Source of the DNA: Nioella sediminis
GTDB lineage: Bacteria; Pseudomonadota; Alphaproteobacteria; Rhodobacterales; Rhodobacteraceae
Direction: 5' to 3'
DNA: 64,000 nt
Assembly (NCBI RefSeq): GCF_001879695.1
Contig: NZ_MNBL01000084.1
Location: 1-64,000, forward strand
Under the pieces are notes generated by a model, which searched no databases, had not been told where the DNA came from, and saw only the letters and a list, made by a program, of their open reading frames with translations. The stretch's first letter is position 1. Each line of letters starts with the position of its first letter. The translations under genes and the position numbers were made by a program. Below, piece by piece: positions 7,408 through 46,446 of this stretch.

Positions 7408-7414
7408 TGGCCGG

Positions 7415-7780
7415 TCATTCCAGATCGTAGATCACGCTGGTGCCGTTGGCATTTGTCCAGCGCAGGCGTGTGGCGCTGATCACCGTCAGACTGTTGCCAT
7501 TGCCGGTTTGGAACCGGTCCAGCGCAATCCGGTGGTAAGGCACCGGGGGCGAGGAATAACCCTGCCTTTGCAGCGTGATCATGTCCGGGCCGATCACACG
7601 CAGGATCTGACGCAGTTCCTGTCCGTCGGCCCATTGACCCAGATAGGTTCCCCCGGTGATGCTGACCTGTGCCGCGATGGTTCGCGTTGCGGGATGGTTT
7701 GGGAAGAGGTCGGCCTTTGCGGGAAACACCCCCAACAGGAAAGGCGCGAGCAGCAACTGGCGGCGGGTGGGACTGGGCAT
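7415..7780 (-). CDS. Small secreted protein of unknown function
   Basis: 121 residues. The N terminus MPSPTRRQLLLAPFLLGVFPAKA looks like an export signal, with a twin-arginine-like RRQLLL but no full Tat consensus. The rest is a small soluble domain with no motif I recognise. An AAAGG site precedes the ATG. It is convergent with the Rieske oxygenase, leaving 7 bp between stops. The function is unknown. Confidence 0.6.
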   Translation of the reverse strand: MPSPTRRQLLLAPFLLGVFPAKADLFPNHPATRTIAAQVSITGGTYLGQWADGQELRQILRVIGPDMITLQRQGYSSPPVPYHRIALDRFQTGNGNSLTVISATRLRWTNANGTSVIYDLE

Positions 7781-31068: not shown

Positions 31069-31470
31069 ATGTCCCACCCCGACCAGCTGCCATCACCACC
31101 CTCCCGCTTGCGCCTCAGACTTCTCTTCGGGGATGACCTGATGCTTGGCCCCGGCAAGGCGGATCTGCTGGAAGGAATACGCGACACCGGTTCGATTGCC
31201 GCTGCCGGACGGGCCATGTCCATGAGCTACAAACGGGCCTGGACCCTTGTAGATCAGATGAATGGCGCGTTTCGAAAGCCGCTTGTCGATAGTGTTCGGG
31301 GCGGTGCGAAAGGCGGCGGTGCAAGATTGACCGATGCCGGGGAACAAGTGCTGAAGCATTATCGGAAACTGGAAGACATCGCTGCCGAGGCCGGTGCTGC
31401 GCGGATCAATGCCATATCGGATCTGTTGAAGACCGGGGATGCCGACCCGGACAATCAGGGGCCCGGCTGA
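31069..31470 (+). CDS. modE: ModE-type molybdate-responsive regulator, DNA-binding domain only
   Basis: 133 residues: a winged helix-turn-helix of the ModE N-terminal type (LRLLFGDDLMLGPGKADLLE, GSIAAAGRAMSMSYKRAWTL, VDQMNGAF). The C-terminal di-MOP molybdate-binding half of full ModE (~260 aa) is absent, as in the short regulators of many alphaproteobacteria; how it senses molybdate is not evident. Its stop overlaps the modA start (TGATG). An inverted repeat upstream is the probable operator. Confidence 0.85.
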   Translation: MSHPDQLPSPPSRLRLRLLFGDDLMLGPGKADLLEGIRDTGSIAAAGRAMSMSYKRAWTLVDQMNGAFRKPLVDSVRGGAKGGGARLTDAGEQVLKHYRKLEDIAAEAGAARINAISDLLKTGDADPDNQGPG

Positions 31471-32291
31471 TGTCGGCGATGTGTTTCAGCAGCCATAACG
31501 TGGGCGGTATCGCTCATCAACCCGGACCCGCACGCCTTGTCAGTTTTACGGCAGCTTTGATGGCCATGATCGTGGCCTCTGCCCCGGCAGCAGCCGAAAC
31601 GGTGACGGTCTTCGCCGCCGCCAGCCTGACCACGGCGCTGACGCAGGTTGCGGAGCAGTATGAAGACACAGAAGGCGGGGAGATCGCGCTTTCCTTCGCG
31701 GGGTCGTCGGCCCTTGCGCGCCAGATTCAGCTGGGCGCCCCTGCCGATATCTTCATTTCCGCCAACCCCGATTGGATGGACCTGCTGCAGGCGGGGGATC
31801 TGCTAGACCCCGACAGCCGAACTGACCTGTTGGGCAACAGCCTTGTGCTGATCGCACATGAGCCAATCGACCATGTCGACCTAAACGCTGACCTGGATCT
31901 CTCCGCGCTGCTCCGCCCCGGTCGCCTCGCCATGGCGCTGACGCAAGCCGTGCCCGCAGGGATCTACGGACGCGCGGCGCTGGACACGCTTGGGTTGTGG
32001 GATCAGGTGGCCACGCAGGTGGTCGAGACGGATAATGTCCGGGCGGCGCTGGCGTTGGTTGCGCTTGGCGAGGCCCCGCTTGGCGTGGTCTATGCGACCG
32101 ATGCACGGGCCAATCCAGATGTTCACGTGATCGCGACATTCCCCCCGGACAGCCACCCGCAGATCACCTATCCGGCTGCCCTGTTATACGGTCCGGCCGG
32201 AGAGGAGGCCGGAGGGTTCCTGACCTTCCTTCTAGGCCCCGATGCCCGCGCGGTGTTCGAGGCCGAGGGCTTCACAGTGTTGGGGGACTAG
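31470..32291 (+). CDS. modA: Molybdate ABC transporter substrate-binding protein
   Basis: 273 residues with an N-terminal export signal ending near ASAPAAAE. The mature ModA fold shows VTVFAAASLTTALTQVAEQY, FAGSSALARQIQLGAPADIF with the serine-rich oxyanion site, and VVETDNVRAALALVALGEAPLGVVYATDA. It captures molybdate or tungstate in the periplasm. Start as annotated overlaps the modE stop; a later start giving a shorter signal is possible. modB follows after 4 bp. Confidence 0.93.
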   Translation: MSAMCFSSHNVGGIAHQPGPARLVSFTAALMAMIVASAPAAAETVTVFAAASLTTALTQVAEQYEDTEGGEIALSFAGSSALARQIQLGAPADIFISANPDWMDLLQAGDLLDPDSRTDLLGNSLVLIAHEPIDHVDLNADLDLSALLRPGRLAMALTQAVPAGIYGRAALDTLGLWDQVATQVVETDNVRAALALVALGEAPLGVVYATDARANPDVHVIATFPPDSHPQITYPAALLYGPAGEEAGGFLTFLLGPDARAVFEAEGFTVLGD

Positions 32292-32295
32292 GCCG

Positions 32296-32988
32296 GTGGA
32301 TTGGCTGGGACCGGAAGAATGGCAAGCGGTGGCCCTGTCGCTGCGCGTGTCGCTTTGGGCGACGCTGGCCAGCCTGCCGCTTGGCATCTTTACCGCCTAT
32401 GCGCTGGCGCGCTGGAGGTTTCCGGGGCATGGTTTGATCAACGGACTGGTACACCTGCCGCTGATCCTGCCGCCCGTGGTCACCGGTTACCTGTTGCTCC
32501 TGACCTTCGGGACGCGCGGGCCTGTCGGGTCGGCTCTGCAAGACATAGGCATTGTCCTTGCCTTCCGCTGGACCGGCGCGGCGCTGGCTGCCGCCGTCAT
32601 GGCCTTTCCTCTGATGGTGCGCGCCATCCGCCTGTCGATCGAAGCCGTCGATCCCAGGCTGGAACAGGCTGCCGCCACGCTCGGGGCCTCTCGCCTTTGG
32701 GTCTTTGCCACCGTGACCTTGCCGATGATCCTACCCGGCATCATCGCGGGCGCGATCCTGGCCTTTGCCAAGGCCATGGGGGAATTCGGCGCGACGATTA
32801 CTTTCGTGTCCAACATCCCCGGCCAGACCCGCACCGTGCCCTCCGCGATCTATGCCTTCCTGCAAGTGCCGGGCGGTGAAGACGCGGCAATGCGGCTTGT
32901 GCTGGTATCGGTCGCCGTGGCCATGACCGCGCTGCTTCTTTCGGAAGTCATCGCGCGGAAGATTGCCGCATGGGTGTCCGGGACATGA
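32296..32988 (+). CDS. modB: Molybdate ABC transporter permease
   Basis: 230 residues from a GTG start 4 bp after modA, giving MDWLGPEEWQAVALSLRVSL. Several membrane helices, the cytoplasmic EAA-type loop (DPRLEQAAATLGASRLWVFA) and AFAKAMGEFGATITFVSNIPGQT are typical of ModB. An earlier frame opening lies inside modA and is not needed. The gene overlaps modC by 4 bp. Confidence 0.93.
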   Translation: MDWLGPEEWQAVALSLRVSLWATLASLPLGIFTAYALARWRFPGHGLINGLVHLPLILPPVVTGYLLLLTFGTRGPVGSALQDIGIVLAFRWTGAALAAAVMAFPLMVRAIRLSIEAVDPRLEQAAATLGASRLWVFATVTLPMILPGIIAGAILAFAKAMGEFGATITFVSNIPGQTRTVPSAIYAFLQVPGGEDAAMRLVLVSVAVAMTALLLSEVIARKIAAWVSGT

Positions 32989-34070
32989 CCCTGTCGGTCT
33001 CCCTTCGCCACGCTTTGCCGGGGTTTCTGCTGGATGCGGCGTTCGACGCCCCGCCCGGCATAACGGTGCTGTTCGGGCGGTCAGGGTCCGGCAAGACCAC
33101 GATCGCCAATGCGGTGGCAGGGCTGCTTCGGCCAGACCGGGGGCGGATTGTGGCCGCGGATAAGGTGCTGATGGATAGCGACCGGGGCCTGTGGGTGGCG
33201 CCGAACAGGCGCCGGATCGGCTATGTCTTTCAGGAGGGCCGGCTGTTTCCGCATCTCACCGTGCGCCAGAACCTCGCCTATGGCCGTTGGTTCGCCCCCA
33301 AGGGCGCACGGATCGAAGACATGGCGCATGTGGTGGATCTTCTTGGGATCGGGCACCTGCTGACCCGTCGCCCCGGAGCGCTGTCAGGCGGGGAAAAACA
33401 ACGGGTGGCAATCGGTCGGGCCTTGTTGTCCGCGCCACGGCTGATCGTGGCGGATGAACCGCTGGCCGCGCTTGACGAGGCGCGCAAGGCCGAGATCCTG
33501 CCGTATCTGGAACGGCTGCGCGATGAGGTCGAAATTCCGATTCTCTATGTCAGTCATTCGGCTGCCGAGGTGGCGCGGCTTGCGACAACGGTGGTGGCGC
33601 TTGAAAACGGGCGGGTGATCCGGCAGGGGGCCGCGGCCGAGGTGCTGTCCGATCCTGCCGTTACCCCGCTTGGGGCGCGATCCGCCGGGGCGCTGCTGAT
33701 GGCTAGGGTGGTTGCCCATCATGACGACGGGTTGACAGAACTTGATGCCGGGGGATGCCCGCTGTTTCTGCCGCGCATTCCGCAACCGCCGGGCCATTCG
33801 GTCCGCATTCGCATCGCGGCGCATGACGTGATTTTGTCGCGCGTAAGGCTAGAGGGGCTGTCGGCATTGAACATCCTGCCGGGGACCGTGCGGGATATCC
33901 GGGCAGGCGACGGACCCGGCGCCATCCTGTCGCTTGACACTGCCGCAGGCGTGGTGCTGGCAAGGGTCACCCGCAGGTCTGTTGCATCGCTTTCGCTGGC
34001 GCCGGGAACGTCCTGCCATGCGGTGATCAAGACGGTGGCCATAGCGCCTGAAGATGTCGGGGCGCTTTAG
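32985..34070 (+). CDS. modC: Molybdate ABC transporter ATP-binding protein
   Basis: 361 residues: Walker A GRSGSGKTT, signature LSGGEKQR, Walker B LIVADEPLAALD and the switch His in SHSAAEVARL. A C-terminal TOBE/MOP molybdate-binding domain runs from ~290 (SALNILPGTVRDI). The ATG at 32985 overlaps the modB stop (ATGA); an in-frame ATG at 32970 is also possible. The gene is followed by a block of tandem palindromes. Confidence 0.95.
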   Translation: MTLSVSLRHALPGFLLDAAFDAPPGITVLFGRSGSGKTTIANAVAGLLRPDRGRIVAADKVLMDSDRGLWVAPNRRRIGYVFQEGRLFPHLTVRQNLAYGRWFAPKGARIEDMAHVVDLLGIGHLLTRRPGALSGGEKQRVAIGRALLSAPRLIVADEPLAALDEARKAEILPYLERLRDEVEIPILYVSHSAAEVARLATTVVALENGRVIRQGAAAEVLSDPAVTPLGARSAGALLMARVVAHHDDGLTELDAGGCPLFLPRIPQPPGHSVRIRIAAHDVILSRVRLEGLSALNILPGTVRDIRAGDGPGAILSLDTAAGVVLARVTRRSVASLSLAPGTSCHAVIKTVAIAPEDVGAL

Positions 34071-34074
34071 CCAG

Positions 34075-34169
34075 CAAGATTTTTCCGGAAAAATCTTGCG
34101 GCGAAGGTAGGAAGACTTTTCTGGAAAAGTCTTCCTGGTCTGCGAGAAAAATCTTCCGGAAGATTTTTC
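34075..34169. repeat. Tandem palindrome block 1 (three palindromes)
   Basis: Three abutting hairpin-forming palindromes fill the gap between convergent modC and the alpha/beta hydrolase gene: 34075-34098 (24 bp, perfect, core TTCCGGAA), 34109-34136 (12-bp arms, loop CTGG) and 34146-34169 (24 bp, perfect, core TTCCGGAA). Position suggests bidirectional termination. The same architecture recurs at 51.3, 55.3 and 58.9 kb. Confidence 0.85.
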
Positions 34170-34178
34170 CGAGACCGC

Positions 34179-35006
34179 TCAGCCAAGCAGCGATTGTGTC
34201 AGGGGATGGTCTGCCTGTTTCAACCCGTCGATGACATCGAAATGGTGACGACCGGGATCGTAGACCGCAGGAGAGAAGTTCGTCTTTTCGGCCCAGGCTT
34301 CTGCCAGGATCTGCGACTGGCGCAGGAACTCCGGACGCTCCAATGCGCCGGTCCAGCAGGTCACGGATTTGCCGGGCAGAGGGTCGAGCAGCACAGGGCT
34401 TTCGGTCTCGGCCTCATGCCCATCAATCTGCAGTGTTTCGTTCATCGAATGCAGGCGCACGGGGCGCAGATCGTGAACGCCGCTGATCGAGACAACGCGT
34501 TCGATACGGTCGCTGATCGACGTGGGCAATGGTCCGCCTTCGCAGATCATCCGTGTCACCAGATGCCCGCCAGCGGAATGCCCGGTCAGCCGGATCGGTC
34601 CGTCGACCATCGTGGCAGCCTTGCAGATGGCCGCGCCGATCTGGCGTGTGATGCCCGCGATCCTGGCTTCGGGAGCCAGCGTATAACTCGGCATCGCCAC
34701 GGCCCATCCATGGGCCAGCGGACCGGCGGCCAGGTCGGAATACAGTCCCTTGTGCATCCGCATCCAGTAGCCGCCATGGACAAAGACGACGAGGCCTCTG
34801 ATCAGCCCATCCGGCCGGAACAGATCGAACCGTTCACGCGGGGCGTCCCCATAGGCGATATCGGTTTCCGCATGGGGCCAGCTGTCGCGGAAGGCATGGG
34901 CGCGCTGTTCCCAGATCGCCGGAAAGCCGTCGCCGCCGGGAATGTGATCGGCATTGGTGAAGGCATCTTCCCAGTCGATTCCGCTCTCTGGTGCTGCGCT
35001 GTTCAT
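34179..35006 (-). CDS. Alpha/beta hydrolase, formamidase/esterase type
   Basis: 275 residues from the ATG at 35006 (AGGAC about 8 bases upstream). An oxyanion-hole motif VVFVHGGYW and the nucleophile elbow LTGHSAGGHLV place it in the HSL/kynurenine-formamidase-like branch; GRHHFDVIDGL supplies the likely catalytic His. It is the last gene of the minus-strand operon that starts at 43228, 83 bp after the iron alcohol dehydrogenase. A role in cleaving an amide or ester in that pathway is inferred. Confidence 0.82.
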   Translation of the reverse strand: MNSAAPESGIDWEDAFTNADHIPGGDGFPAIWEQRAHAFRDSWPHAETDIAYGDAPRERFDLFRPDGLIRGLVVFVHGGYWMRMHKGLYSDLAAGPLAHGWAVAMPSYTLAPEARIAGITRQIGAAICKAATMVDGPIRLTGHSAGGHLVTRMICEGGPLPTSISDRIERVVSISGVHDLRPVRLHSMNETLQIDGHEAETESPVLLDPLPGKSVTCWTGALERPEFLRQSQILAEAWAEKTNFSPAVYDPGRHHFDVIDGLKQADHPLTQSLLG

Positions 35007-35088
35007 ATCTGCTGTCCTATGGTCGCAAAAAACCCGAGGCGCAGAGTAGACCCGCCCCGGGGGAATGATCAAACGGGAAAACTGCCGC

Positions 35089-36234
35089 TCAGATGATCTC
35101 TTCGAACAGCGCCTTCACGTTGTCCGCCGTCAGCGTGACCGGATTGCCACCGCAGGACGGATCTTCCAGCGCCATGGCGGTCAGTTCGTCGATGCGGTCG
35201 CGGCCGACGCCCATCTCGGACAGACTGCGCGGTATGCCGAGGCTGTCGTTGAACGCCTGCACGAAGGACTGGAACCCGGCAAAGCCGCCTTCGATGCCCA
35301 GATAGGCGGCGGCGCGGTCGAAGCGCTGCTCGATTGCAGGCGCATTGAGGCGCAGCACGGCGGGCATGCAGACGGCGTTGGTGGTGCCGTGATGGGTGCC
35401 GTAGACCGCGCCAATGGGGTGGCTCAGCGCATGGATCGCGCCAAGACCCTTTTGGAAGGCGGTCGCGCCCATTGCGGCGGCGCTCATCATCTGTGCACGG
35501 GCCTCGATATCGGTGCCGATGGCGTAGGCACGCGGCAGGTACTCTTTCACCAATCTCATGCCTTCCAGCGCAATCCCCTGGCTCATCGGGTGGTAATGCG
35601 GGCTGCTGAACGCCTCCACGCAATGGGCGAAGGCATCAAGCCCCGTGCCCGCCGTGATCGCCTGCGGCATGCCCACGGTCAGCTCTGGGTCGGCGATCAC
35701 GACCGAGGGCAGCACCTTGGGATGGAAGATGATCTTCTTCACATGGGTTTCGGAATTGGTGATGACGCTGGCGCGCCCCACCTCGGACCCTGTGCCGGCG
35801 GTGGTGGGCACGGCGATGATCGGGGCGATGCCATCGGGGTCGGCGCGCGTCCACCAGTCGCCGATATCCTCGTAGTCCCAAACGGGCCGGGTCTGGCCGG
35901 ACATGAAGGCGACCATCTTGCCCAGATCGAGGCCAGAGCCGCCGCCAAAGGCGATGACCCCGTCATGACCGCCCGCCTTGTAGACCTCCAGCCCGGCGGC
36001 GAGGTTCATCTCATTCGGGTTCGGGTCCACATCGGCGAAGATCGCGCGGCCAAGTCCGGCGGCTTCCATGACATCCAGTGCCGCCGTGGTGATCGGCAGG
36101 TCGCGCAGCCCCCGGTCGGTGACCAGCAGCGGGCGTTTCATGCCGGTTTGGGCGCAGGCCTCGGGCAGCTCGGCAATGCGGCCAGCGCCGAATTTGATCG
36201 CGGTCGGGTAGGACCAGTTACCGGTAAGGCTCAT
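35089..36234 (-). CDS. Iron-containing alcohol dehydrogenase
   Basis: 381-residue group III (Fe-ADH) enzyme. NAD-binding GGGSGLDLGKMVAFM and PTTAGTGSEVGRASVI are typical. Metal ligands are expected in GTGLDAFAHCVEAF (Asp, His) and in the His-rich AIHALSHPIGAVYGTHHG. It would oxidise a primary alcohol to an aldehyde. Its ATG overlaps the stop of the aldehyde dehydrogenase upstream in the operon by 4 bp, so the two probably act in sequence. Confidence 0.93.
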   Translation of the reverse strand: MSLTGNWSYPTAIKFGAGRIAELPEACAQTGMKRPLLVTDRGLRDLPITTAALDVMEAAGLGRAIFADVDPNPNEMNLAAGLEVYKAGGHDGVIAFGGGSGLDLGKMVAFMSGQTRPVWDYEDIGDWWTRADPDGIAPIIAVPTTAGTGSEVGRASVITNSETHVKKIIFHPKVLPSVVIADPELTVGMPQAITAGTGLDAFAHCVEAFSSPHYHPMSQGIALEGMRLVKEYLPRAYAIGTDIEARAQMMSAAAMGATAFQKGLGAIHALSHPIGAVYGTHHGTTNAVCMPAVLRLNAPAIEQRFDRAAAYLGIEGGFAGFQSFVQAFNDSLGIPRSLSEMGVGRDRIDELTAMALEDPSCGGNPVTLTADNVKALFEEII

Positions 36235-37610
36235 TTCGTCACCTTCTTGAGATGGTAGGATTTGGGACGGGTCAGGTTGTGATAGCCGATGACCGACAGG
36301 CCGCCGCCGCGCCCGGTGTTCTTGCAGCCGGTCCAGCAGAGGCCCGGGTCGAGATAGTCGGCGCGGTTGAGGAAAACGGTGCCGGTTTCCACCCGGTCGC
36401 CCACGGCCATGGCCCGGTCGATATCGGCGGTCCAGAGACTGGCGGTCAGGCCGAACTCGCTGTCATTCATCAGCGCGATGGCCTCGTCATCGTCCTTCAC
36501 CGGCATGATGCCGACGACGGGGCCGAAGCTCTCATCGCGCATCACGCGCATGTCGTGGGTGACATTGGTCAGGATCTGTGGGGTCAGGTAGGCACCGCCG
36601 TCATCTTCCGCGAAGGTGGGGATGTGGGCGGTTGCGCCTGCCGCGACGGCCTCCGATGTCTGCGCGCGGACCTCATCGGCAAAGCGGGTGTTTGCCATAG
36701 GACCAAGCGTGGTGTCCGGGTCCAGCGGATTGCCGAGCTTGTAGGTTTTGACCAGCTCCACCGACTTCTCGACAAACGCATCAAACAGGCTTTCCTGGAC
36801 ATAAATCCGCTCGATCCCGCAGCAGCACTGGCCGGAATTGAACATTGCCCCGTCAATCAGCGTGGCAACCGCCGCATCCAGATCGGCATCCTCCATCACA
36901 TAGCCGGGGTCCTTGCCGCCAAGTTCCAGCCCAAGGCCGGTGAACGTCCCCGCCGCCGCGCGTTCCATGGCCTTGCCGCCCCCGACCGAGCCGGTGAAGT
37001 TGACGAAATCGAACGCCCCCTCCGCGATCAGGGCCGATGTCGTGCCGTGGTCGAGGAAGACATTGAGGAACACATCCTCCGGCACGCCCGCCGAATGGAA
37101 GGCGCGGGCCATGCGTTCGCCCACCAGCAGCGTCTGCGTGGCGTGTTTCAGCACCACCGTATTGCCCGCGATCAGCGCGGGCGCCACGGTGTTGATCGCG
37201 GTCATGTAGGGGTAGTTCCACGGCGCCACGACGAAGACGACGCCATGCGGCACCCGCCTGATATAGCGCTTGAACGTGGCGTCCTCGCCCACGGCGATAT
37301 CGGCCAGAGCCTCCCCGGCAATCGCAGCCATATGGCTGGCGCGTTCGTTGAAGCCGCCGAATTCGCCCCCGTAGCGCACCGGACGGCCCATCATATGCGC
37401 CAGCTCCGGCACGATCTCGTCATTCATCGCGCCCACGGCGGCGACACCGGCCATGACCAGTTCAGCACGCTCGGACAGAGGCCGGGCAGCCCAATCGGCC
37501 TGCGCCGCACGGGCGCGATCCACGAGGGCGCGGGCGGCTGACGCTTCCAGCGTTGTGCGCTCGGCGAAAACCGATCCGTCGATCGGTGAGATGCATTTGA
37601 GAAGGCTCAT
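36231..37610 (-). CDS. Aldehyde dehydrogenase
   Basis: 459 residues of the NAD(P)-dependent aldehyde dehydrogenase superfamily. VVAPWNYPYMTAIN, NFTGSVGGGKAMERAA, LELGGKDPGYV with the general-base Glu, and FNSGQCCCGIERIYV with the nucleophilic Cys are present. ATGA overlaps on both sides tie it to the SnoaL-like gene and the alcohol dehydrogenase. The likely substrate is the aldehyde made by that dehydrogenase. Confidence 0.94.
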   Translation of the reverse strand: MSLLKCISPIDGSVFAERTTLEASAARALVDRARAAQADWAARPLSERAELVMAGVAAVGAMNDEIVPELAHMMGRPVRYGGEFGGFNERASHMAAIAGEALADIAVGEDATFKRYIRRVPHGVVFVVAPWNYPYMTAINTVAPALIAGNTVVLKHATQTLLVGERMARAFHSAGVPEDVFLNVFLDHGTTSALIAEGAFDFVNFTGSVGGGKAMERAAAGTFTGLGLELGGKDPGYVMEDADLDAAVATLIDGAMFNSGQCCCGIERIYVQESLFDAFVEKSVELVKTYKLGNPLDPDTTLGPMANTRFADEVRAQTSEAVAAGATAHIPTFAEDDGGAYLTPQILTNVTHDMRVMRDESFGPVVGIMPVKDDDEAIALMNDSEFGLTASLWTADIDRAMAVGDRVETGTVFLNRADYLDPGLCWTGCKNTGRGGGLSVIGYHNLTRPKSYHLKKVTK

Positions 37611-38011
37611 GCGAGGGCACTTTCTGTCTGTTCCTCAAGTTCGTTGAGGCTTGTGTGGCGGATTTTCCAGCTGCCGTCGGCCTGCCGCAGGAAGGTGTTG
37701 AGACCGGTGCCGACGATCCGAAGGACCTGGCCGTCCGGGGCGGAGACATTCGCCGCGTAGAGCAGGCTGCAGAAGCCGATCCCGCCCTCTGCACGGGCGT
37801 CGAGGATGGTCATGGACTTGTTGAACTCGCCTTCTTTAAACCAGCTTTCGTGTGCCGCCATCAGCGCCGCCGTGCCTGTGGCGGGCGGACCGTAGGGCGA
37901 GAAGATCTGCCCGTCCGGGGTGAATTCTGCTGCACAGCCCGCGCTGTCATGGGCGGTGTATGCCTGCAGATACCTGTCGAGCACCGGCTGGAACAGGTCG
38001 CGCGCGGACAT
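37607..38011 (-). CDS. SnoaL/NTF2-like small protein
   Basis: 134 residues with the cone-shaped NTF2/DUF4440 pattern: an N-terminal helix FQPVLDRYLQAYTAHDSAGC, then FTPDGQIFSPYGPPATGTAA and a C-terminal sheet ending in WKIRHTSLN. These folds serve as isomerases, hydrolases or ligand-binding proteins. It is embedded between the ligase and the aldehyde dehydrogenase with a 4-bp overlap and a 3-bp gap, so it is part of the same pathway; its reaction is not predictable. Confidence 0.82.
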   Translation of the reverse strand: MSARDLFQPVLDRYLQAYTAHDSAGCAAEFTPDGQIFSPYGPPATGTAALMAAHESWFKEGEFNKSMTILDARAEGGIGFCSLLYAANVSAPDGQVLRIVGTGLNTFLRQADGSWKIRHTSLNELEEQTESALA

Positions 38012-38014
38012 GGC

Positions 38015-39376
38015 TCAGGCCCTTTCGAACCCGCGGGCGACCTCGTAATCGGTCACCACCCGGTCAAAGTCCTCGATCTCCACTTCGGCGGCGCGGGTGT
38101 AGTGGTCGACCACCCAATCGCCCATAGCCTCGCGCAGCATGGCCGAATTGCGCAGGGTCTCTGCCGCGTCGCGCAGGGTGCCGGGGATGTGGCCGACGTC
38201 GCCCTCATAGGCGTCACCCTTGAAGGGCGGCTCCAGCTCCAGCCCTTCCTCGATGCCCTTGATCCCGGCGGCCAGCATCGCGGCCATGGCCAGATAGGGG
38301 TTCATGTCGGACCCGCCGATGCGGCATTCCACGCGCACGGCCTTGCTGCCCTCGCCACACAGGCGGAAGCCCGCAGTGCGGTTGTCCACCGACCAGACGG
38401 TGCGGGTCGGTGCGAAGCTGCCCTTCTGGAAGCGCTTGTAGCTGTTGATATAGGGGGCCAGGAAACAGGTGTAGTCGCTGGCATATTTGATCAGCCCGGC
38501 CATGTAGCTTTTCATCAGATCCGACATGCCAAGCGGGTCGTTTTCGTCATAGAAGACCGGTGCGCCGTCTTTCCACAGCGACTGGTGCACATGGCTGGAA
38601 CTGCCGACCTTATCGTGATGCCACTTGGGCAGGAAGGTCACGGCATGGCCGTTCTGCCAGGCGATTTCCTTCACCGCGTTCTTTGCGATGGTGTGATTGT
38701 CGGCGGTGTCGAGCGCGGCGGAATAGCGGATGTTCAACTCTTCCTGACCGGTTTCGGCCTCGCCCTTCGAATTCTCCACCGGGATGCCCGCCGCATAGAG
38801 ATGATTGCGGATCGGCCGCATCACATGCTCTTCCTTGGTGGTCTGGAAGATGTGGTAATCCTCGTTGTAGCCGCTGATCGGCTGCATGTCGCGGAAGCCC
38901 GATTTGCGGATCTCGTCAAAGCTCTTCTCGAACAGGAAGAACTCGATTTCCGTGGCCATCATGGCGTCATAGCCCATGGCCTCCAGCCGCTTGACCTGTT
39001 TCTTCAGGATCGCGCGGGGGGAATGGGGCACGTCTTCATGGGTGTGGTGATCCAGCAGATCGCACAGGACCATGACGGTTCCCTCAAGCCACGGCACCGG
39101 GCGCAGCGTGGTCAGGTCGGGCTTCATCACATAGTCGCCATAGCCCGCGCGCCAACTGGTCGAGGCGTAGCCGTCGGGCGTCGCCATCTCCAGATCGGTG
39201 GCCAGCAGGTAGTTGCAGCAATGGGTTTCCTTCCACGCGCTTTCGACGAAGTTCACGGCATGGAAGCGCTTGCCCATCAGGCGGCCCTGCATATCGACCG
39301 CGCAGACCAGCACGGTATCTACCATGCCGTTTGCAACTTGGTCTTTCAGGGTGTCGAAACTCAGGATGGCGGACAT
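38015..39376 (-). CDS. Glutamine-synthetase-like gamma-glutamyl-amine ligase (PuuA/GlnA4-type)
   Basis: 453 residues of the glutamine synthetase superfamily, branch of gamma-glutamylpolyamine, -ethanolamide and -isopropylamide synthetases. Metal and ATP segments are visible: MATEIEFFLF, ENSKGEAETGQEELNI, GSSSHVHQSLW, and SVDNRTAGFR with ECRIGGSDMNPYLAMAAM. A housekeeping role is unlikely given its place in a catabolic operon with TRAP transport and alcohol and aldehyde dehydrogenases. I infer ATP-dependent gamma-glutamylation of an imported amine, most simply an amino alcohol. Confidence 0.9.
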   Translation of the reverse strand: MSAILSFDTLKDQVANGMVDTVLVCAVDMQGRLMGKRFHAVNFVESAWKETHCCNYLLATDLEMATPDGYASTSWRAGYGDYVMKPDLTTLRPVPWLEGTVMVLCDLLDHHTHEDVPHSPRAILKKQVKRLEAMGYDAMMATEIEFFLFEKSFDEIRKSGFRDMQPISGYNEDYHIFQTTKEEHVMRPIRNHLYAAGIPVENSKGEAETGQEELNIRYSAALDTADNHTIAKNAVKEIAWQNGHAVTFLPKWHHDKVGSSSHVHQSLWKDGAPVFYDENDPLGMSDLMKSYMAGLIKYASDYTCFLAPYINSYKRFQKGSFAPTRTVWSVDNRTAGFRLCGEGSKAVRVECRIGGSDMNPYLAMAAMLAAGIKGIEEGLELEPPFKGDAYEGDVGHIPGTLRDAAETLRNSAMLREAMGDWVVDHYTRAAEVEIEDFDRVVTDYEVARGFERA

Positions 39377-39391
39377 GGTGTGTTCCTGTAA

Positions 39392-39428
39392 GGCATTGGG
39401 AATGCCCCGGCCCGGACGTGGCGGGCCG
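39392..39428 (-). terminator. Twin hairpins between dctP and the ligase gene
   Basis: Two stem-loops in the 66-bp gap: GGCATT/AATGCC with loop GGG (39392-39406) and CGGCCCG/CGGGCCG with a 7-base loop (39408-39428). There is no U-tract, so an mRNA-processing or attenuating role that keeps the binding-protein message abundant is more likely than full termination. Confidence 0.5.
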
Positions 39429-39442
39429 AGGCGGGATCGTGA

Positions 39443-40477
39443 TCAGGTATAGCGATAGGGCCGGCCAGCGGCCTGCATATCCGCGTTATACTGCCGGAAG
39501 ATTTCCACCACACGCCGTTTCGTTTCCGACTCGGCTGCGATTTCTTCCCAGAAGTCCTGTGCAGCAGCTTCGACCTGGGCCCATTCCTCATCGGGGATAG
39601 AGGTCAGTTCCATCTCGGTCCCGTGGACGCGCAGCGCGGCCTCACCGCCCCAATACCACCACTGGCGGTAATAGTGCGACTGGTCGCAGCAGACGCGGAA
39701 CAGGGTTTGCAGGTCTTCGGGCAGTTCGTTCCAGCGATCCATGTTGGCAAAGAACGACCCGGCCCATGCGCCAGAGATGTTGTTGGTCAGGAAGTAGTTG
39801 GTCACGTTGGCCCACCCGACGGTGTAATCCTCGGTGATGCCCGACCAGGCGATGCCATCCAGTTCGCCCGTCTGTACGGCCACTTCGATATCTTCCCAGG
39901 GCAGGGTCACCGGCACTACGCCGAACTGGCTGAGGAAGCGGCCCGCGGTCGGGAAGGTGAAGACCCGCTTGCCCTGAAGATCGGCCAGGCTGCGGATCGG
40001 GTCGACCGTGGCGAAGTGGCAGGGGTCCCAGGCACCGGCGGAGATGTGTTTCACACCGACCGCCGAATAGGCTTCGTCCCAGATCTCGTTTAGCCCGTAC
40101 TGGTTGAACAGCACCGGCACGTCGAGCGAGTAGCGCGAGGCGAAGGGGAAATAGCCGCCAAAGACTGTCACTTCAGTGGGCGAGGCCATGGAGTCGTCAT
40201 CAGACTGCACCGCGTCGATCGTGCCGCGCTGCATGGCGCGGAACAGCTCGCCCGTGGGGACCAGCTGATCGGCATAGAACAGCTCGATCTGCATCCGGTC
40301 GCCCGCGATCTGGTTGAACATGTTGATCGCCGGGGTGATCACATGCTCGGCCAGGGCCGCACCGGCATAGGTCTGCATCCGCCAGGTGATGGTGTTCTGA
40401 GCGATGGCAGGCGTTGCCAGCCCGGCCGCCGCCGCGCCGACCCCTGCGGTTTGCAGGAACTTACGTCTTGTCGTCAT
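39443..40477 (-). CDS. dctP: TRAP transporter solute-binding protein (DctP family)
   Basis: 344-residue periplasmic binding protein with a Tat signal (MTTRRKFLQTAGVGAAAAGLATPAIA). The DctP fold is clear: ITWRMQTYAGAALAEHVI, GELFRAMQRGTIDAVQ, LADLQGKRVFTFPTAGRFL, and an aromatic-rich binding-site region near WWYWGG. AAGGAG lies before the ATG. The ligand is not readable, but the absence of an obvious organic-acid context and the adjacent amine ligase favour a nitrogenous or amino-alcohol compound. Confidence 0.92.
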   Translation of the reverse strand: MTTRRKFLQTAGVGAAAAGLATPAIAQNTITWRMQTYAGAALAEHVITPAINMFNQIAGDRMQIELFYADQLVPTGELFRAMQRGTIDAVQSDDDSMASPTEVTVFGGYFPFASRYSLDVPVLFNQYGLNEIWDEAYSAVGVKHISAGAWDPCHFATVDPIRSLADLQGKRVFTFPTAGRFLSQFGVVPVTLPWEDIEVAVQTGELDGIAWSGITEDYTVGWANVTNYFLTNNISGAWAGSFFANMDRWNELPEDLQTLFRVCCDQSHYYRQWWYWGGEAALRVHGTEMELTSIPDEEWAQVEAAAQDFWEEIAAESETKRRVVEIFRQYNADMQAAGRPYRYT

Positions 40478-40525
40478 GTCACTTCTCCTTGTTGATGGGG
40501 TGCCCCGGTTCGCGGGGTCTGTTTG

Positions 40526-41851
40526 CTATCGGTTGTAGACATAATCGGGCAGCCACAGCGCGATCTGCGGGAAGACCATGACCAGCGTCAGGGCCAGCAC
40601 CATCACGAGCGCGAAGGGAATGATGGATCGGTAGATGTCACGCAGGCCGATCTCGGGCGGGGCCATGGCGCGCATCAGGAACAGGTTATAGCCGAAGGGC
40701 GGCGTCATATAGGCGATCTGCGTGGTGATCGTGTAAAGCACGCCATACCAGATCAGGTTGAAACCGAGCTCATCGACCAGCGGCACGTAAAGCGGCGCAA
40801 CGATCACGAGCATCGCGGTGTCATCCAGAAACGTGCCCATCACGATGAAGGAAAGCTGCATCAGGATGAGGATCATCCAAGGCGACAGTCCCCATTGTTC
40901 GGTAAACAGGCTCTCAATCGCGTTCACCGCACCAAGCCCGTCGAAGATCGCGCCAAAGCCAAGTGCGGCCAGGATGATCCACATGAACATGCAGGAAATG
41001 CCGAGCGTATTGCGCACCGAGGTTTCGAACACCTCTTTCGTCATACGGCCCTTCAGCACGGCGGCAACGAAGGCTGTCAGCGCCCCGATGGCAGAGCTTT
41101 CCACCAGCGAGGTCCAGCCATTGACGAAGGGCACCATCATCGTAGCGAAGATCACCAGCGGCAGCAGCCCGGCGCGCAGCAGGCGCAGTTTCTCGGCCAT
41201 GGGAACGTTGCGTTCTTCCTCGGGCAGGGCAGGGCCGAGCTCTGGCTGAATGCGGCAGCGGATATAGATGTAAATGATGAACATCGCGGCCATCATCAGG
41301 CCGGGCAGCACGCCCGCCAGCCAAAGCTGCCCCACCGGCTGGCGCGCGATCATCGCATAAAGGACCAGCACGACCGAGGGTGGCACCAGGATGCCGAGCG
41401 ACGACCCCGCCTGAATGACGCCTGTCACCATGATCTTGTCATAGCCCCGGCGCAGCAGTTCCGGCAGCGCGATGGTGGCGCCGATGGCCATGCCTGCAAC
41501 AGACAGCCCGTTCATGGCCGAGATCAGCACCATCAGCCCGATCGTGCCGATGGCCAAGCCGCCCCGCACCGGCCCCATCCAGACATGGAACATCTTGTAG
41601 AGGTCATCGGCGATCTTCGATTCCGACAGGATGTAGCCCATGAAGATGAACATCGGCAGGGTCAGCAACGGATACCAGCGCATCAGCTTCATCGCGTTGG
41701 CGAAGGGAATCTCGATGCCGCCCACACCCCACAGCAGCACGCCCGACAAAGCCGCGACAAAGCCGATGGCCCCGAAGACGCGCTGCCCGGTGAACAGCAT
41801 CAGCATCATCGAGCTGAACATCATGATGGCGATGAGTTCATAGGACATCAC
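40526..41851 (-). CDS. dctM: TRAP transporter large permease (DctM family)
   Basis: 441-residue, roughly 12-helix membrane protein that drives sodium-coupled uptake in TRAP systems. Landmarks: FTGQRVFGAIGFVAALSGVL, VAGMAIGATIALPELLRRGY, SLGILVPPSVVLVLYAMIA, and MTPPFGYNLFLMRAMAPPEI near the end. It overlaps dctQ by 4 bp and is followed by dctP. Confidence 0.94.
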   Translation of the reverse strand: MMSYELIAIMMFSSMMLMLFTGQRVFGAIGFVAALSGVLLWGVGGIEIPFANAMKLMRWYPLLTLPMFIFMGYILSESKIADDLYKMFHVWMGPVRGGLAIGTIGLMVLISAMNGLSVAGMAIGATIALPELLRRGYDKIMVTGVIQAGSSLGILVPPSVVLVLYAMIARQPVGQLWLAGVLPGLMMAAMFIIYIYIRCRIQPELGPALPEEERNVPMAEKLRLLRAGLLPLVIFATMMVPFVNGWTSLVESSAIGALTAFVAAVLKGRMTKEVFETSVRNTLGISCMFMWIILAALGFGAIFDGLGAVNAIESLFTEQWGLSPWMILILMQLSFIVMGTFLDDTAMLVIVAPLYVPLVDELGFNLIWYGVLYTITTQIAYMTPPFGYNLFLMRAMAPPEIGLRDIYRSIIPFALVMVLALTLVMVFPQIALWLPDYVYNR

Positions 41852-42444
41852 AGATCCTCCCCGCGAATGCGGCCGATATCGCGGAAGAATTCAGCCGAGG
41901 CCTGAAGGATCATGAGGAAGACACCGATGCAAAGCGTGACCTTGATGGGCCACAGGATGGGACGCCACGCCGTGGGGCTGCGTTCGAGAAAGCCGATTTC
42001 CTCTGCCGCGCCGCTGAACCCGCCGGTCAGGAACGCCCAGGCCAGATCGCGGAAGAAGGTGAAGGGCTCCATACCGAAATAGCCAAGCGCATAGGCGGTG
42101 GAACTGACCGCGCCGATGAACAGCACGACGAGGTAGTACATCAGGAACAACACGGTGAAGGCATCGACCCAGGCTTTGGTGCGCGGGCTCCAGTTGCCGT
42201 AGAACAGGTCCATCCGCACATTCGACCCCAGTTGGATCGAATAGGGACCCCCAAGGATGTAATAGGCCACCATCACGAATTGCGCGGTTTCCAGCGTCCA
42301 TTGCGCCGGGTTGAAGAAGGTCTTGGAAATCGAGCTCCACAGCAGAATGCCGATCAGCACGAAGATCAGGTACATCGCGATGCGCCCGATGAAACGGTTC
42401 ATTCGGTCGATGGCGCGGATATAGGCGAGGATGACCCTAGGCAT
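41848..42444 (-). CDS. dctQ: TRAP transporter small permease (DctQ family)
   Basis: 198 residues with four hydrophobic segments (IAMYLIFVLIGILLWSSISK; FVMVAYYILGGPYSIQLGS; AFTVLFLMYYLVVLFIGAVS; IKVTLCIGVFLMILQ). NVRMDLFYGNWSPRTKAWVD is the typical DctQ loop. Its start overlaps the end of the N-formylglutamate amidohydrolase-like gene by 8 bp, so the operon is continuous. Confidence 0.9.
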   Translation of the reverse strand: MPRVILAYIRAIDRMNRFIGRIAMYLIFVLIGILLWSSISKTFFNPAQWTLETAQFVMVAYYILGGPYSIQLGSNVRMDLFYGNWSPRTKAWVDAFTVLFLMYYLVVLFIGAVSSTAYALGYFGMEPFTFFRDLAWAFLTGGFSGAAEEIGFLERSPTAWRPILWPIKVTLCIGVFLMILQASAEFFRDIGRIRGEDL

Positions 42445-43228
42445 GCCCGGCCTCCCGGTCGGTCAGGCCCAAAGCCGCCAGCGCGGGGACCAGAAGCAGA
42501 TGGATTTCACCGGCAAGCGCGGCCTGATCGGCCTCGGTCGTCAGCAGGTCGTTGCGAATCTCGATCATCACATTCGGCAGGTTCCGGTCGATCCCGTGCA
42601 GGCGCAGGGAATGGGTGACGCCATCTGCGGGGCCATATGGCTCGTTTCTGTCCACATGGCGGTGCGGCAAAGCGGTGGCACGGTCCAGCATCGCATCGGC
42701 AATGCGGCTGTCGGTGTCGTGCAGGATGCCGATCTCAACCGCGCGGGTGCGTCCGTGAAACACCGGGGTGAAACTGTGGACGGTCACCAGCGCAGTGGGA
42801 GACTGGCTGACCCGGCGACCGTCCAGAACCGCCCCGACCGCATCGCAGAAAGGGCGGTAGACCGTGGCTTCCCGCTCGGCCCGTTGATCGGCTGAAAGGC
42901 CATGATTTCCGGGCACGTCTATGGCTTCGGACCGGGCAGGCATGGCGCTGATAGCCTCGGGCGGGCGGTTGCAATCGTAGACAAGCCGCGACACGCGGCT
43001 GGCAACAAGCGGCGCATCCAGCAAGTTGGACAATTCCCGCGCGACGCCAAGCGCACCGGGGTCCCACGCGGCATGGCTTTGCCGGTCCTGCGGGGCCAGC
43101 CCAAGGCCGTCATAGCGGGCGGGAATGTGATGCGAGGCATGTTCGCACAGCAAGACGACGGGGCCTTTGCCCCCGCGATTGATCACCTCAACCGCATCGC
43201 TTGCTGTCATGTCGAGTGCCGCAGACAT
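42437..43228 (-). CDS. N-formylglutamate amidohydrolase family protein
   Basis: 263 residues. The family motifs VVLLCEHASHHIPARYDGLG, DPGALGVARELSNLLDAPLV, SRLVYDCNRPP, LVTVHSFTPVFHGRTR and VMIEIRNDLL are present, with the histidines and glutamate expected for a zinc amidohydrolase. The known reaction is release of glutamate from an N-acyl glutamate. As first gene of the TRAP/ligase/dehydrogenase operon, with no histidine-utilisation gene around, it is a candidate for removing a glutamyl or acyl group at the end of that pathway. Confidence 0.85.
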   Translation of the reverse strand: MSAALDMTASDAVEVINRGGKGPVVLLCEHASHHIPARYDGLGLAPQDRQSHAAWDPGALGVARELSNLLDAPLVASRVSRLVYDCNRPPEAISAMPARSEAIDVPGNHGLSADQRAEREATVYRPFCDAVGAVLDGRRVSQSPTALVTVHSFTPVFHGRTRAVEIGILHDTDSRIADAMLDRATALPHRHVDRNEPYGPADGVTHSLRLHGIDRNLPNVMIEIRNDLLTTEADQAALAGEIHLLLVPALAALGLTDREAGHA

Positions 43229-43244
43229 GCCGATTCCATCCCTG

Positions 43245-43288
43245 TTCTGTAAATATTGTTTCCTTATGCAGCATTTCTGTCAATATAT
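43245..43288. promoter_or_regulatory. Direct-repeat operator between amidohydrolase operon and RpiR gene
   Basis: TTCTGTAAATATTG at 43245 and TTCTGTCAATATAT at 43275 form a direct repeat with exactly 30 bp periodicity, about three helical turns. The AT-rich halves AAATATTG and CAATATATTT are also inverted to each other. It lies in the 153-bp divergent gap and is the best candidate for RpiR binding. Confidence 0.5.
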
Positions 43289-43381
43289 TTCCAGAGTGCT
43301 TGGACCGGGCTGCGCCAACTGCTAAGAACTGCAGCCAACCTGCCCGGGATTTCGGCAGAACCTGTCTGGTGGAGGGACTTC

Positions 43382-44248
43382 ATGGCCGCAACGACCGTCC
43401 GGGAGCTGATCCGCGAACACTATTCCCTGCTGACCCAGTCAGAACGCAAATTCGCCAATGCGCTGTTGGAAAACTATCCTTCCGCCGGTTTGGCCTCGAT
43501 CACTGCCGTTGCCGCCAACGCGGGCGTATCCACGCCGACAGTGGCGCGGATGGTGCAAAAGCTTGGGTTCAAAGGATATCCGCAGTTTCATCAGGCCCTG
43601 CTGAAAGAGTTGGAGGCGCGGGCCTCGGGCCCTACGCAGCGCCGGGCCACATGGGCGGCGGCGGCGCCGGATACCCACATGCTGAACCGGTTCGCCGAGG
43701 CGGTGCAGCAGAATATCGGCCAGACCTTCGAGAATATCGACACCTCGAAGTTCGATCAGGCGGTGGAGCGGCTGTCGGATACATCCGGGCGGCTTTACGT
43801 GGTCGGCGGGCGCATCACGCGGGCTTTGGCCGACTATTCCTTCACCCATTTCCAGGCGATTCGACCGCGGGTCACCCATATGACATCGTCCTCCGCCACC
43901 TGGCCGCATTACGTGCTGGACATGGTCGAAGGCGACACGCTGCTGATGTTCGACGTGCGCCGCTATGAAACCAATCTGGAACGGTTGGCCGATCTGGTGG
44001 CCCCGCGCGGCGTCAATATCATCCTGATCACCGATCAATGGGCCTCGCCCGTGGCGAAGGTCGCGGGGCAGGTGTTCAATTGCTGGGTGGAAATCCCGTC
44101 GGCCTGGGATTCCAACATCTCCACCATGATGCTGGTCGAGGCGCTGATCGCTGCCACGCAGGAAAAAAGCTGGCCCGATACAAAGGACCGCTATGACCGT
44201 CTGGACGAGCTTTTCGACATGACGCGGCTGTTTCGCAAGTTCACCTGA
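43382..44248 (+). CDS. RpiR/MurR-family transcriptional regulator
   Basis: 288 residues from the ATG at 43382 (GGAGGG site upstream). The N-terminal HTH_6 domain reads LTQSERKFANALLENYPSAG and STPTVARMVQKLGFKGYPQF. The C-terminal SIS domain from ~120 contains LYVVGGRITRALADYSFTHF and DTLLMFDVRRYETNL, and normally senses a phosphorylated or acidic metabolite. It is divergent from the TRAP/ligase operon and is most likely its regulator. Confidence 0.92.
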   Translation: MAATTVRELIREHYSLLTQSERKFANALLENYPSAGLASITAVAANAGVSTPTVARMVQKLGFKGYPQFHQALLKELEARASGPTQRRATWAAAAPDTHMLNRFAEAVQQNIGQTFENIDTSKFDQAVERLSDTSGRLYVVGGRITRALADYSFTHFQAIRPRVTHMTSSSATWPHYVLDMVEGDTLLMFDVRRYETNLERLADLVAPRGVNIILITDQWASPVAKVAGQVFNCWVEIPSAWDSNISTMMLVEALIAATQEKSWPDTKDRYDRLDELFDMTRLFRKFT

Positions 44249-44315: not shown

Positions 44316-45233
44316 ATGGGGGAACGCCCGGATTTTATGCTCGGCCTTCCGACTCTGGCGACATCGGGGGCACCTCTGGTGTCGGACAACCCGACGGAGG
44401 CTCCCATCAACAAGCCGCTCTCAGCGCAAGACCTGTCCGGGGTCGCAAGCCAGCCAAGGGCAATCGGCGCGGCGCGGTTGACCGCTGGACCGTCAGGATT
44501 GCGCGGATTGCGGCAATCCGGGTCGATGCGCGTGCTGTTCCCGCGACAGACGCCGGGCTGGCCGCAGGCGGTGCTGCTGAACACCTCGGGCGGGGTGACG
44601 GGCGGCGACCGCTTTATCGTTGAGGCCGACGCAGAGCCCGCCGCGCGCCTGACCCTGACCACGCAGGCCGCCGAACGCATCTACCGGGCGCAGCCGGGGG
44701 AAACCGGATACGTGGACACGCGCCTGACCATCGGCGCGGGCGGGCGCATCGACTGGCTACCGCAGGAAACCATCCTGTTTGATCGAAGCAGCCTGCGCCG
44801 ACGTCTGTCGGTGACCATGGCCAAAGACGCCAGCCTTCTGGTCGTGGAACCGCTGGTCTTCGGTCGCCGCGCTATGGGTGAGGTGCTGCGCGACATTCGC
44901 CTGTCTGACCGGATCGAGATATTCCGCGATGGCGCGCGCCTGTTCACCGATGCCACCCGGTTGACCGGCGATGTGTCCCGGCAGATGCAGGGCCATGCCA
45001 CCGGTCACGGTGCGACGGCACTGGCAACGGTGATCTTCGCCGCGCCGGGGGCCGAGGCGTTTCTGGGCGATGTCCGCGATCTGCTGCCTGAAACCGGTGG
45101 GGCAAGCCTGATCCGTCCCGATCTGCTGTTCATCCGCATTCTGGCCGAAGACAGCTTCGCCCTGCGCGCCAGCCTGATCCCTGTCATCACCGTTTTGCAC
45201 CGGGCGGATCTGCCCCGAACATGGATGTTGTGA
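44316..45233 (+). CDS. ureD: Urease accessory protein UreD
   Basis: 305 residues; UreD (UreH) scaffolds the UreFG complex on apo-urease during nickel delivery. Family segments: [60 protein letters not shown] and [14 protein letters not shown]. The first ~45 residues are not conserved, and ATGs at 44316 and 44337 are both possible starts. It opens the urease operon; ureA begins 1 bp after its stop. Confidence 0.93.
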
Positions 45234-45234
45234 C

Positions 45235-45537
45235 ATGAACCTGACCCCCCGCGAAAAGGACAAGCTGCTGATCGCCATGGCCGCCGAGGTCGCCCGCAAG
45301 CGGCTGGCGCGCGGCGTCAAGCTGAACCACCCCGAGGCCATCGCCCTGATCACCGACGCCGTCGTGGAAGGCGCCCGCGACGGGCGCAGCGTCGCCGACA
45401 TGATGGAGGTGGGCGCCCAGGTGATTACCCGCGACCAGTGCATGGAGGGCATCCCCGAGATGATCCACGAAGTGCAGGTCGAGGCCACCTTTCCAGACGG
45501 CACCAAGCTCGTCACCGTTCACAACCCCATTCGCTGA
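45235..45537 (+). CDS. ureA: Urease gamma subunit
   Basis: 100 residues, the standard UreA length. It starts [20 protein letters not shown] and ends [19 protein letters not shown], both family signatures. It is a structural subunit of the urease trimer and carries no active-site residue. It is followed after 12 bp by an unusual small membrane-protein gene rather than ureB. Confidence 0.97.
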
Positions 45538-45549
45538 AAGGGCATTACC

Positions 45550-45714
45550 ATGAAGTATCTTCTGCCGGGTCTTGCACTGATCCTCGCCACCGCCGCGCAG
45601 GCCCACGAGGGCGGCCACCTGCACCCGCACGAGGCCAACAGCTGGTTCGTGGGCGCGCTTTTGCTGGCGGCGGGGCTGGCGGGTGGCTACCTGATCGGCT
45701 GGGTCCGCCGATGA
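45550..45714 (+). CDS. His-rich single-pass membrane mini-protein between ureA and ureB
   Basis: 54 residues read directly from the sequence: [18 protein letters not shown] is a signal-like segment. The short histidine-rich stretch [14 protein letters not shown] (four His, three Glu) follows, then one helix ([20 protein letters not shown]) ending WVRR. The stop overlaps the ureB ATG (ATGA), so it is translationally coupled within the urease operon. No named family comes to mind. The His/Glu cluster suggests periplasmic nickel binding, as an inference from composition and context. Confidence 0.75.
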
Positions 45715-46016
45715 TCCCCGGAGAGCTGTTTCCAGCCGAGGGCGATCTGGTTCTGAACGAGGGGCGCGAGGCGATCACGCTGATGGTGGCCAATACAGGT
45801 GACCGGCCCGTGCAGGTGGGCAGCCACTACCATTTCGCCGAGGCCAACAGCGCGCTCGATTTCGACCGCACCGCCGCGCGCGGGCGCAGGCTCGACATCG
45901 CCGCGGGCACCGCCGTACGCTTCGAGCCGGGACAGCGGCGCGAGGTCAATCTCATCCCCATCGGGGGCGCACGCCGCGTCTTCGGCTTCAACCAACAGGT
46001 GATGGGAGATCTCTGA
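45711..46016 (+). CDS. ureB: Urease beta subunit
   Basis: 101 residues from the ATG at 45711. [54 protein letters not shown] and [11 protein letters not shown] are diagnostic of UreB. The open frame extends further upstream through ureA, but this start gives the exact family N terminus. It overlaps the His-rich gene by 4 bp and the next gene by 1 bp. Confidence 0.97.
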
Positions 46017-46411
46017 TGGCCACACTACCCCTTCTGACCGACGATCAGCTGACGCCCGAGGCGGCGGCGGTCTTTGCCGATATCCGCGCCACGCGCGGCA
46101 CGGATTACGTCAACAACTTCTGGCGCGCGCTGGCCCATAACCCGGCGCAGCTGAAGGCGACGTGGGAAGGGTTAAAGCCCGTCATGGGCCCCGGCGCGCT
46201 GGACCCGCTGGTGAAAGAGATGATCTATATCGCCGTCTCGGCCGCCAATGCCTGCGAATACTGCTGTCATTCCCACGCGGCCTCGGCCCGCGCCAAGGGA
46301 ATGACCCCCGAGATGTACAACGAATTGATGTCGGTCGTGGCCATGGCCAGCAGCACCAACGCGCTGGCCAATATGCTGCAGGTGCCCGTGGACGAGGCGT
46401 TCCGGGCATGA
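46016..46411 (+). CDS. AhpD/carboxymuconolactone decarboxylase-family protein inside the urease operon
   Basis: 131 residues of the CMD/AhpD fold with the redox pair in NACEYCCHSHAASARAKGM (CxxC followed by His), the signature of alkylhydroperoxidase-like proteins. It starts on the last base of the ureB stop and lies 35 bp before ureC. It is not a known urease component. A peroxide- or thiol-linked protective role for the nickel enzyme, or simple hitch-hiking, are both possible. Confidence 0.88.
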   Translation: MATLPLLTDDQLTPEAAAVFADIRATRGTDYVNNFWRALAHNPAQLKATWEGLKPVMGPGALDPLVKEMIYIAVSAANACEYCCHSHAASARAKGMTPEMYNELMSVVAMASSTNALANMLQVPVDEAFRA

Positions 46412-46446
46412 CGACCGAGCGCCAGCAGCCCTGACAGGAGGCCCCG

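Follow-up and report, generated by a model that had tools for sequence, protein, structure and literature searches.

Gamma-glutamylation precedes oxidation in the Puu (putrescine) and Ipu (isopropylamine) routes, as it would at the locus analyzed here; those routes differ from it by their substrates, oxidases and hydrolases. The locus occupies positions 34179–44248 of a 64,000-nucleotide stretch of Nioella sediminis DNA (contig NZ_MNBL01000084.1; the whole stretch is called the window below), which lies on one of the 197 contigs of a 3.96 Mb genome. It comprises a divergent regulator gene and nine closely spaced minus-strand genes, among them those of a tripartite ATP-independent periplasmic (TRAP) transporter, a glutamine synthetase (GS)-like ligase and two dehydrogenases.

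An operon of similar make-up, MED193_10021–10056, is known from Phaeobacter sp. MED193. The gene list given for it begins with RpiR, gamma-glutamylglycine amidohydrolase (GGAH) and the TRAP proteins EtoV, EtoW and EtoX, followed by ethanolamine gamma-glutamylase, gamma-glutamylacetaldehydeamide dehydrogenase (GAADDH) and gamma-glutamylethanolamide dehydrogenase (GETADH) (PMC10132767). The same paper reports a Kd of 7.9 µM of EtoX for ethanolamine and an increase in five proteins of the operon with phosphorylethanolamine, and it ties ethanolamine use, which it describes as widespread in the ocean, to phospholipid breakdown.

In Chromohalobacter salexigens, ethanolamine is bound by the TRAP solute-binding protein Csal_0678, in which the arginine usual for TRAP proteins is missing (PMC4646407); the structure of this protein, 4UAB, holds ethanolamine, with Glu220 as a platform residue (PMC12410723). 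Table 2 of PMC9397018 lists PF00120, PF00465, PF00171 and PF05013 for this organism. For its pathway, the literature points back to Gerlt 2016 and to a FASEB abstract of 2015. An enzyme of the formylglutamate amidohydrolase family (PF05013) is named as the deglutamylating step (PMC6529630, PMC9397018). The GlnA4 route of Streptomyces coelicolor (SCO1611–SCO1615; PMC6529630) shares the four enzyme families with the window, the PF05013 amidohydrolase included; it differs in belonging to an actinobacterium, and TRAP uptake is not mentioned in the available part of PMC6529630. A first-pass annotation of the window had taken its combination of TRAP importer, iron alcohol dehydrogenase and formylglutamate-amidohydrolase-family step for a candidate undescribed pathway. 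This claim of novelty fails, because all three are already in print for this type of operon (PMC10132767, PMC6529630, PMC9397018).

The Locus Matches the Published Ethanolamine Operon

We consider it very likely, judging from the gene content and relationships described below, that the locus serves ethanolamine catabolism and belongs with the published operons of the EtoVWX/gamma-glutamylation type. All ten genes were confirmed in their coordinates and strands, and each product matched a Pfam family above the gathering score, in agreement with the families assigned by the first-pass annotation. The matches are Abhydrolase_3, Fe-ADH, Aldedh, SnoaL_2, Gln-synt_C, DctP, DctM, DctQ and FGase for the minus-strand genes and HTH_6 with SIS for the regulator; PF00120, PF00465, PF00171 and PF05013 are thus present together in the operon. 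Eight genes are shared with the MED193 operon in identical order (RpiR, GGAH, EtoV, EtoW, EtoX, ligase, aldehyde dehydrogenase, iron alcohol dehydrogenase), with RpiR at the same end. The window differs in having an extra SnoaL-like gene, inserted between the ligase and aldehyde dehydrogenase genes, and a terminal alpha/beta hydrolase gene, neither of which is in the gene list of PMC10132767. The features are as follows.

43382–44248, plus strand: MurR/RpiR-family regulator (HTH_6 and SIS, Pfam), divergent, in the place of RpiR MED193_10021 (PMC10132767)
43229–43381, no strand: divergent intergenic region of 153 bp; the promoter-like site inside is a pattern match only
42437–43228, minus strand: N-formylglutamate amidohydrolase family protein (PF05013), putative gamma-glutamylglycine amidohydrolase by Pfam and by its position, that of GGAH MED193_10026
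41848–42444, minus strand: TRAP small permease DctQ, EtoV position (Pfam, published order, synteny)
40526–41851, minus strand: TRAP large permease DctM, EtoW position (Pfam, published order, synteny)
39443–40477, minus strand: TRAP solute-binding protein DctP with a Tat signal, orthologue of ethanolamine-binding Csal_0678 / EtoX (4uab)
38015–39376, minus strand: GS-like ligase, putative ethanolamine gamma-glutamylase (Pfam, 5dm3, motif alignment, published order)
37607–38011, minus strand: SnoaL-like small protein, accessory (Pfam); outside the published operon and very divergent among congeners
36231–37610, minus strand: aldehyde dehydrogenase, putatively oxidizing the gamma-glutamyl aldehyde (GAADDH; Pfam, NCBIfam, published order)
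35089–36234, minus strand: iron-containing alcohol dehydrogenase, putative gamma-glutamylethanolamide dehydrogenase (GETADH; Pfam, NCBIfam, published order)
34179–35006, minus strand: alpha/beta hydrolase (hormone-sensitive lipase family of NCBIfam), accessory (Pfam, NCBIfam)
34156–34172, minus strand: terminator-like stem directly 3' of the last gene, a pattern match of a class not above chance

By analogy with the published pathway, the TRAP transporter would import ethanolamine, a fragment of membrane lipids, and the ligase would join it to glutamate at the expense of ATP, giving gamma-glutamylethanolamide. The iron alcohol dehydrogenase would oxidize this product to the aldehyde, which the aldehyde dehydrogenase would convert to gamma-glutamylglycine. 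Cleavage of the latter to glycine and glutamate by the formylglutamate-amidohydrolase-family enzyme would complete the route, so that glutamate would be recycled. RpiR is a likely substrate-responsive regulator. The succession of import, gamma-glutamylation, oxidation from alcohol through aldehyde to acid and release of an amino acid had been outlined in the first-pass annotation; we infer this function because both orthology and the ethanolamine pathway in print are consistent with it.

The TRAP Binding Protein and the Ligase Are Close to Chromohalobacter Proteins

The DctP protein aligns with PDB chain 4UAB over 319 residues with zero gaps (641.7 bits, E 3e-192), and the segment GELDGIAWSGITEDYTVGWANVTNYFLTNNISGAW is identical in the two. 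On these grounds, it is a close orthologue of 4UAB (Csal_0678), and thus one of the Csal_0678/EtoX-type binding proteins of TRAP transporters. The glutamate at residue 216 is invariant in at least 98% of 68 aligned DctP sequences (the window and 67 of the 69 loci with a match, those passing a coverage and stop filter). With a deduced numbering offset of 3, Glu216 would correspond to the platform residue Glu220 of 4UAB.

The best PDB match of the ligase is 5DM3 (816.8 bits), which we take to be Csal_0679, the product of the gene neighbouring that of Csal_0678 in C. salexigens; thus, the DctP and the ligase of the Csal_0678 operon are the nearest PDB relatives of those in the window. Another structure close to the ligase is 11zs, from the same family. 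Glutamine synthetase was considered as a function of the ligase and rejected. The genome has a separate GlnA (L001, 444.7 bits), and this protein carries the FDGSS and FE-AP motifs, both missing from the operon ligase in the alignment. FDGSS and the flap glutamate before AP are ammonium-site motifs of GlnA (positions Asp50, Ser53 and Glu327). The ligase also scored far under the cut-off of the NCBIfam GlnA model (250.4 bits, cut-off 429.15) and under that of the PuuA gamma-glutamylputrescine synthetase model NF045547 (201.8 bits, cut-off 650).

Likewise, N-formylglutamate deformylase (HutG) was rejected for the formylglutamate-amidohydrolase-family protein, which reached 15.9 bits against the NCBIfam model TIGR02017 with its cut-off of 278.75. 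Three other proteins of this family in the genome (Pfam-matched pieces of 205–233 aa) gave no match, 83.0 and 31.2 bits; since all of them are under the cut-off, no clear HutG was identified in the genome. The operon protein has a single PDB match, 2ODF, which was entered there under the name hypothetical protein Atu2144. Among 54 sequences (the window plus the 53 that the same filter left from 62 matching loci), the residues invariant in at least 98% include Cys28, Glu29, His30, His52, Asp56, His151, His170, Glu223 and Arg225, a set that fits an intact hydrolase site. EutB, of the eut ethanolamine ammonia-lyase pathway, had no match in the organism's own genome; the control search found E. 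coli, 1 of 14 control genomes.

The Core Gene Order Recurs Among Relatives

We searched an even sample of 149 genomes of the family for the ligase (E ≤ 1e-150); a match turned up in 92, counting the window's own, and not in 57. Leaving the own genome aside, we retrieved 92 loci from 91 genomes, one of which contributed two, and located the counterparts of the ten window proteins in them (E ≤ 1e-4). Counts are anchored on the ligase and refer to 71 loci with adequate flanks (no less than 7.0 kb on the upstream side and 4.5 kb on the downstream side). All eight core genes are present in the same order and orientation in 49 of them, so the grouping withstood the conserved-synteny check suggested by the first-pass annotation. 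That annotation had counted in the SnoaL-like and alpha/beta hydrolase genes, which proved to be additions present in few loci.

We also examined 80 named loci, some of which end early; as these are the best of at least 594, the set is skewed to close relatives. The closest is Nioella sp. MMSF_3534 (L037), whose ligase is 98% identical. The full order was found in 42 of the 56 adequately flanked named loci, including those of Chromohalobacter israelensis and Terasakiella (L100); the C. israelensis locus (L095) differs from the window in having no SnoaL or hydrolase match. The core order is also seen in loci of Vreelandella and Halomonas faecis, and all eight genes are present, with shorter flanks, in Thalassospira (L091). 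Another Halomonas locus (L101) has no RpiR or FGase match. Chance does not account for the arrangement, given that its core order is repeated in different genera of the family and again in Chromohalobacter, Vreelandella, Halomonas faecis, Thalassospira and Terasakiella.

Several points weigh against assigning the locus to the ethanolamine operon type. At least one core gene had no match in 22 of the 71 family loci, and the whole TRAP set is missing in 15 of these. Six of the 22 keep matches to the TRAP, GS, aldehyde dehydrogenase and iron alcohol dehydrogenase genes without RpiR and FGase. Core genes whose matches fall short of the E cut-offs escape these counts. The C. salexigens pathway itself is given a different status in different sources: demonstrated, also in Agrobacterium (PMC10132767), predicted in silico (PMC6529630) or proposed (PMC9397018). 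Finally, every pathway step in N. sediminis is deduced from orthology rather than assay; ethanolamine binding was shown elsewhere, for two orthologous binding proteins (Csal_0678 and EtoX), as was induction, for five MED193 proteins.

The six loci without RpiR and FGase include L222, in which the aldehyde dehydrogenase match covers 20% only, and L194, whose TRAP genes come downstream, after those of the ligase and dehydrogenases, not upstream. The other incomplete loci have GS, aldehyde dehydrogenase and iron alcohol dehydrogenase (five; in L146 the aldehyde dehydrogenase match is 33% and upstream), GS and iron alcohol dehydrogenase (five), RpiR, FGase, GS and both dehydrogenases without TRAP (four), all but FGase (one) or GS alone (one). 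No alternative ethanolamine transporter was recognized among proteins from four of the TRAP-less loci, picked crudely from open reading frames and possibly including antisense frames; they comprised two AcrB-type pump pieces (L172) and a DAO-type oxidoreductase (L208), the rest being without a family match (L172, L175 and L191). In L166, L172, L175, L191, L228 and L237, the stretch fetched contains the ligase and iron alcohol dehydrogenase genes and no TRAP, aldehyde dehydrogenase or FGase match. A second GS-like locus of a congener, L238 (genome G151, contig C2), has matches to FGase, the ligase and both dehydrogenases and none to the TRAP proteins, SnoaL or the hydrolase.

Two Accessory Genes and a Variable Slot

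Among the named loci, L037 alone matches the SnoaL-like protein or the hydrolase. SnoaL homologues (E ≤ 1e-10) occur in 8 of the 149 family genomes: in three (the window's genome, G082 and G007) they sit immediately downstream of the ligase gene, in the other five elsewhere. Within the window's genus, the gene is present in three of six genomes, each time directly after the ligase gene. The proteins of three congeners (the window, L231 and L232) are 53–66% identical, and the synonymous divergence (dS) of the gene is 1.3–1.9 versus 0.03–0.41 for other operon genes, in a simple pairwise estimate that is near saturation; the ratio of nonsynonymous to synonymous divergence (dN/dS) is about 0.2. 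In the interval 39500–36401, identity drops in the SnoaL gene and, more weakly, about the first 100 bases of the aldehyde dehydrogenase gene. Because its dS is far above that of its operon neighbours, the data point to an in-place replacement of the SnoaL gene with purifying selection acting on it, and not to rapid adaptive evolution.

The gap between the ligase and aldehyde dehydrogenase genes exceeds 250 bases in 11 of 78 measurable loci. Four of these hold a SnoaL gene and L164 holds a DUF7662 and PIN-domain pair (6588–7452, family-tested; L104, L106 and L114 look similar by eye). In two named loci, the slot contains a glyoxalase-fold protein (L062:11362–11745 and L078:11365–11742). Insertions thus recur in this slot, between the ligase gene and the dehydrogenase gene that follows it. 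The SnoaL-like protein, like its glyoxalase-fold counterpart in L062 and L078, might be an auxiliary pathway enzyme, acting, for example, on cyclised or side-reacted gamma-glutamyl aldehyde, with the gene repeatedly exchanged in place, an idea to which we give only a small chance. A literature search, with supplements outside its scope, found no paper that brings together at least three of the four subjects SnoaL, ethanolamine, glutamine synthetase and TRAP transporter.

Relatives of the alpha/beta hydrolase are common (122 of the 149 family genomes at E ≤ 1e-50), and among the loci examined it lies inside the operon only in the window's genus. There it follows the iron alcohol dehydrogenase at four of five GS-like loci, the window included; one of the four is a short GS–iron alcohol dehydrogenase–hydrolase version in genome G150 (L237), and the fifth locus, L238, is without it.

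Gene Starts, Signals and Neighbours

Two gene starts of the first-pass annotation were better moved, its coordinates and strands being otherwise right. RpiR more likely starts at ATG 43382 (288 aa) than at TTG 43256, because its relatives mostly cover 83–92% of the longer version; it is this start that leaves the 153-bp divergent region. The hydrolase likely starts at ATG 35006 (275 aa) and not at 35072, since most relatives align from about residue 21–35. Overlaps of 4 bases join the iron alcohol dehydrogenase and aldehyde dehydrogenase, the aldehyde dehydrogenase and SnoaL, and the DctM and DctQ genes; DctQ and FGase overlap by 8 bases. The promoter-like pattern match (43283–43255, minus strand) lies just 5' of the first minus-strand gene. 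Neither promoter-like sites (2 versus a shuffle mean of 2.2) nor terminator-like stems (6 versus 6.5) are in excess in the region. Judged by eye, the plus-strand neighbours resemble a molybdate ABC transporter (31470–34070; ModA/B/C-like) and a urease gene cluster (44316–48159).

Alternative Readings

The operon could serve wider or different amino alcohols, for instance converting L-alaninol to L-alanine, with ethanolamine as one of several substrates. A further PDB entry for Csal_0678, 4XF5, has a ligand that we take to be (S)-2-amino-1-propanol, and DctP proteins in the same slot fall into two identity bands, 62–66% (10 of 66 loci) and 70–91% (56 of 66), which could mean different substrate ranges. 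We regard this reading as unlikely, given that MED193 EtoX was measured with ethanolamine, the MED193 operon responds to phosphorylethanolamine (PMC10132767), and 4UAB is very close to the window DctP. That a true glutamine synthetase and HutG stand by chance beside a TRAP operon is suggested by family names only and is scarcely credible against the separate GlnA, the ligase without ammonium-site motifs, the score of 15.9 bits where HutG demands 278.75, and a gene order conserved across genera.

It is also quite improbable that the SnoaL-like protein and the hydrolase add catalytic steps, making the end product or the substrate differ from the published one. Their placement speaks for such steps: in three genera, represented by L158, by L182 and by the window's own genus, SnoaL comes straight after the ligase, and the hydrolase recurs after the iron alcohol dehydrogenase gene in the window's genus, L238 excepted. 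Against them stand the other 79 of the 80 named loci, some of them cut short, which match neither protein, and the MED193 gene list. Since both are absent from these loci and from the list, the pathway probably runs without them. The operon, read as one for ethanolamine, is an already known one, ordinary apart from these two accessory genes.

N. sediminis thus joins the bacteria that can probably recycle ethanolamine, and the fresh question that remains is why a small SnoaL-like gene within the operon differs so strongly among congeners.

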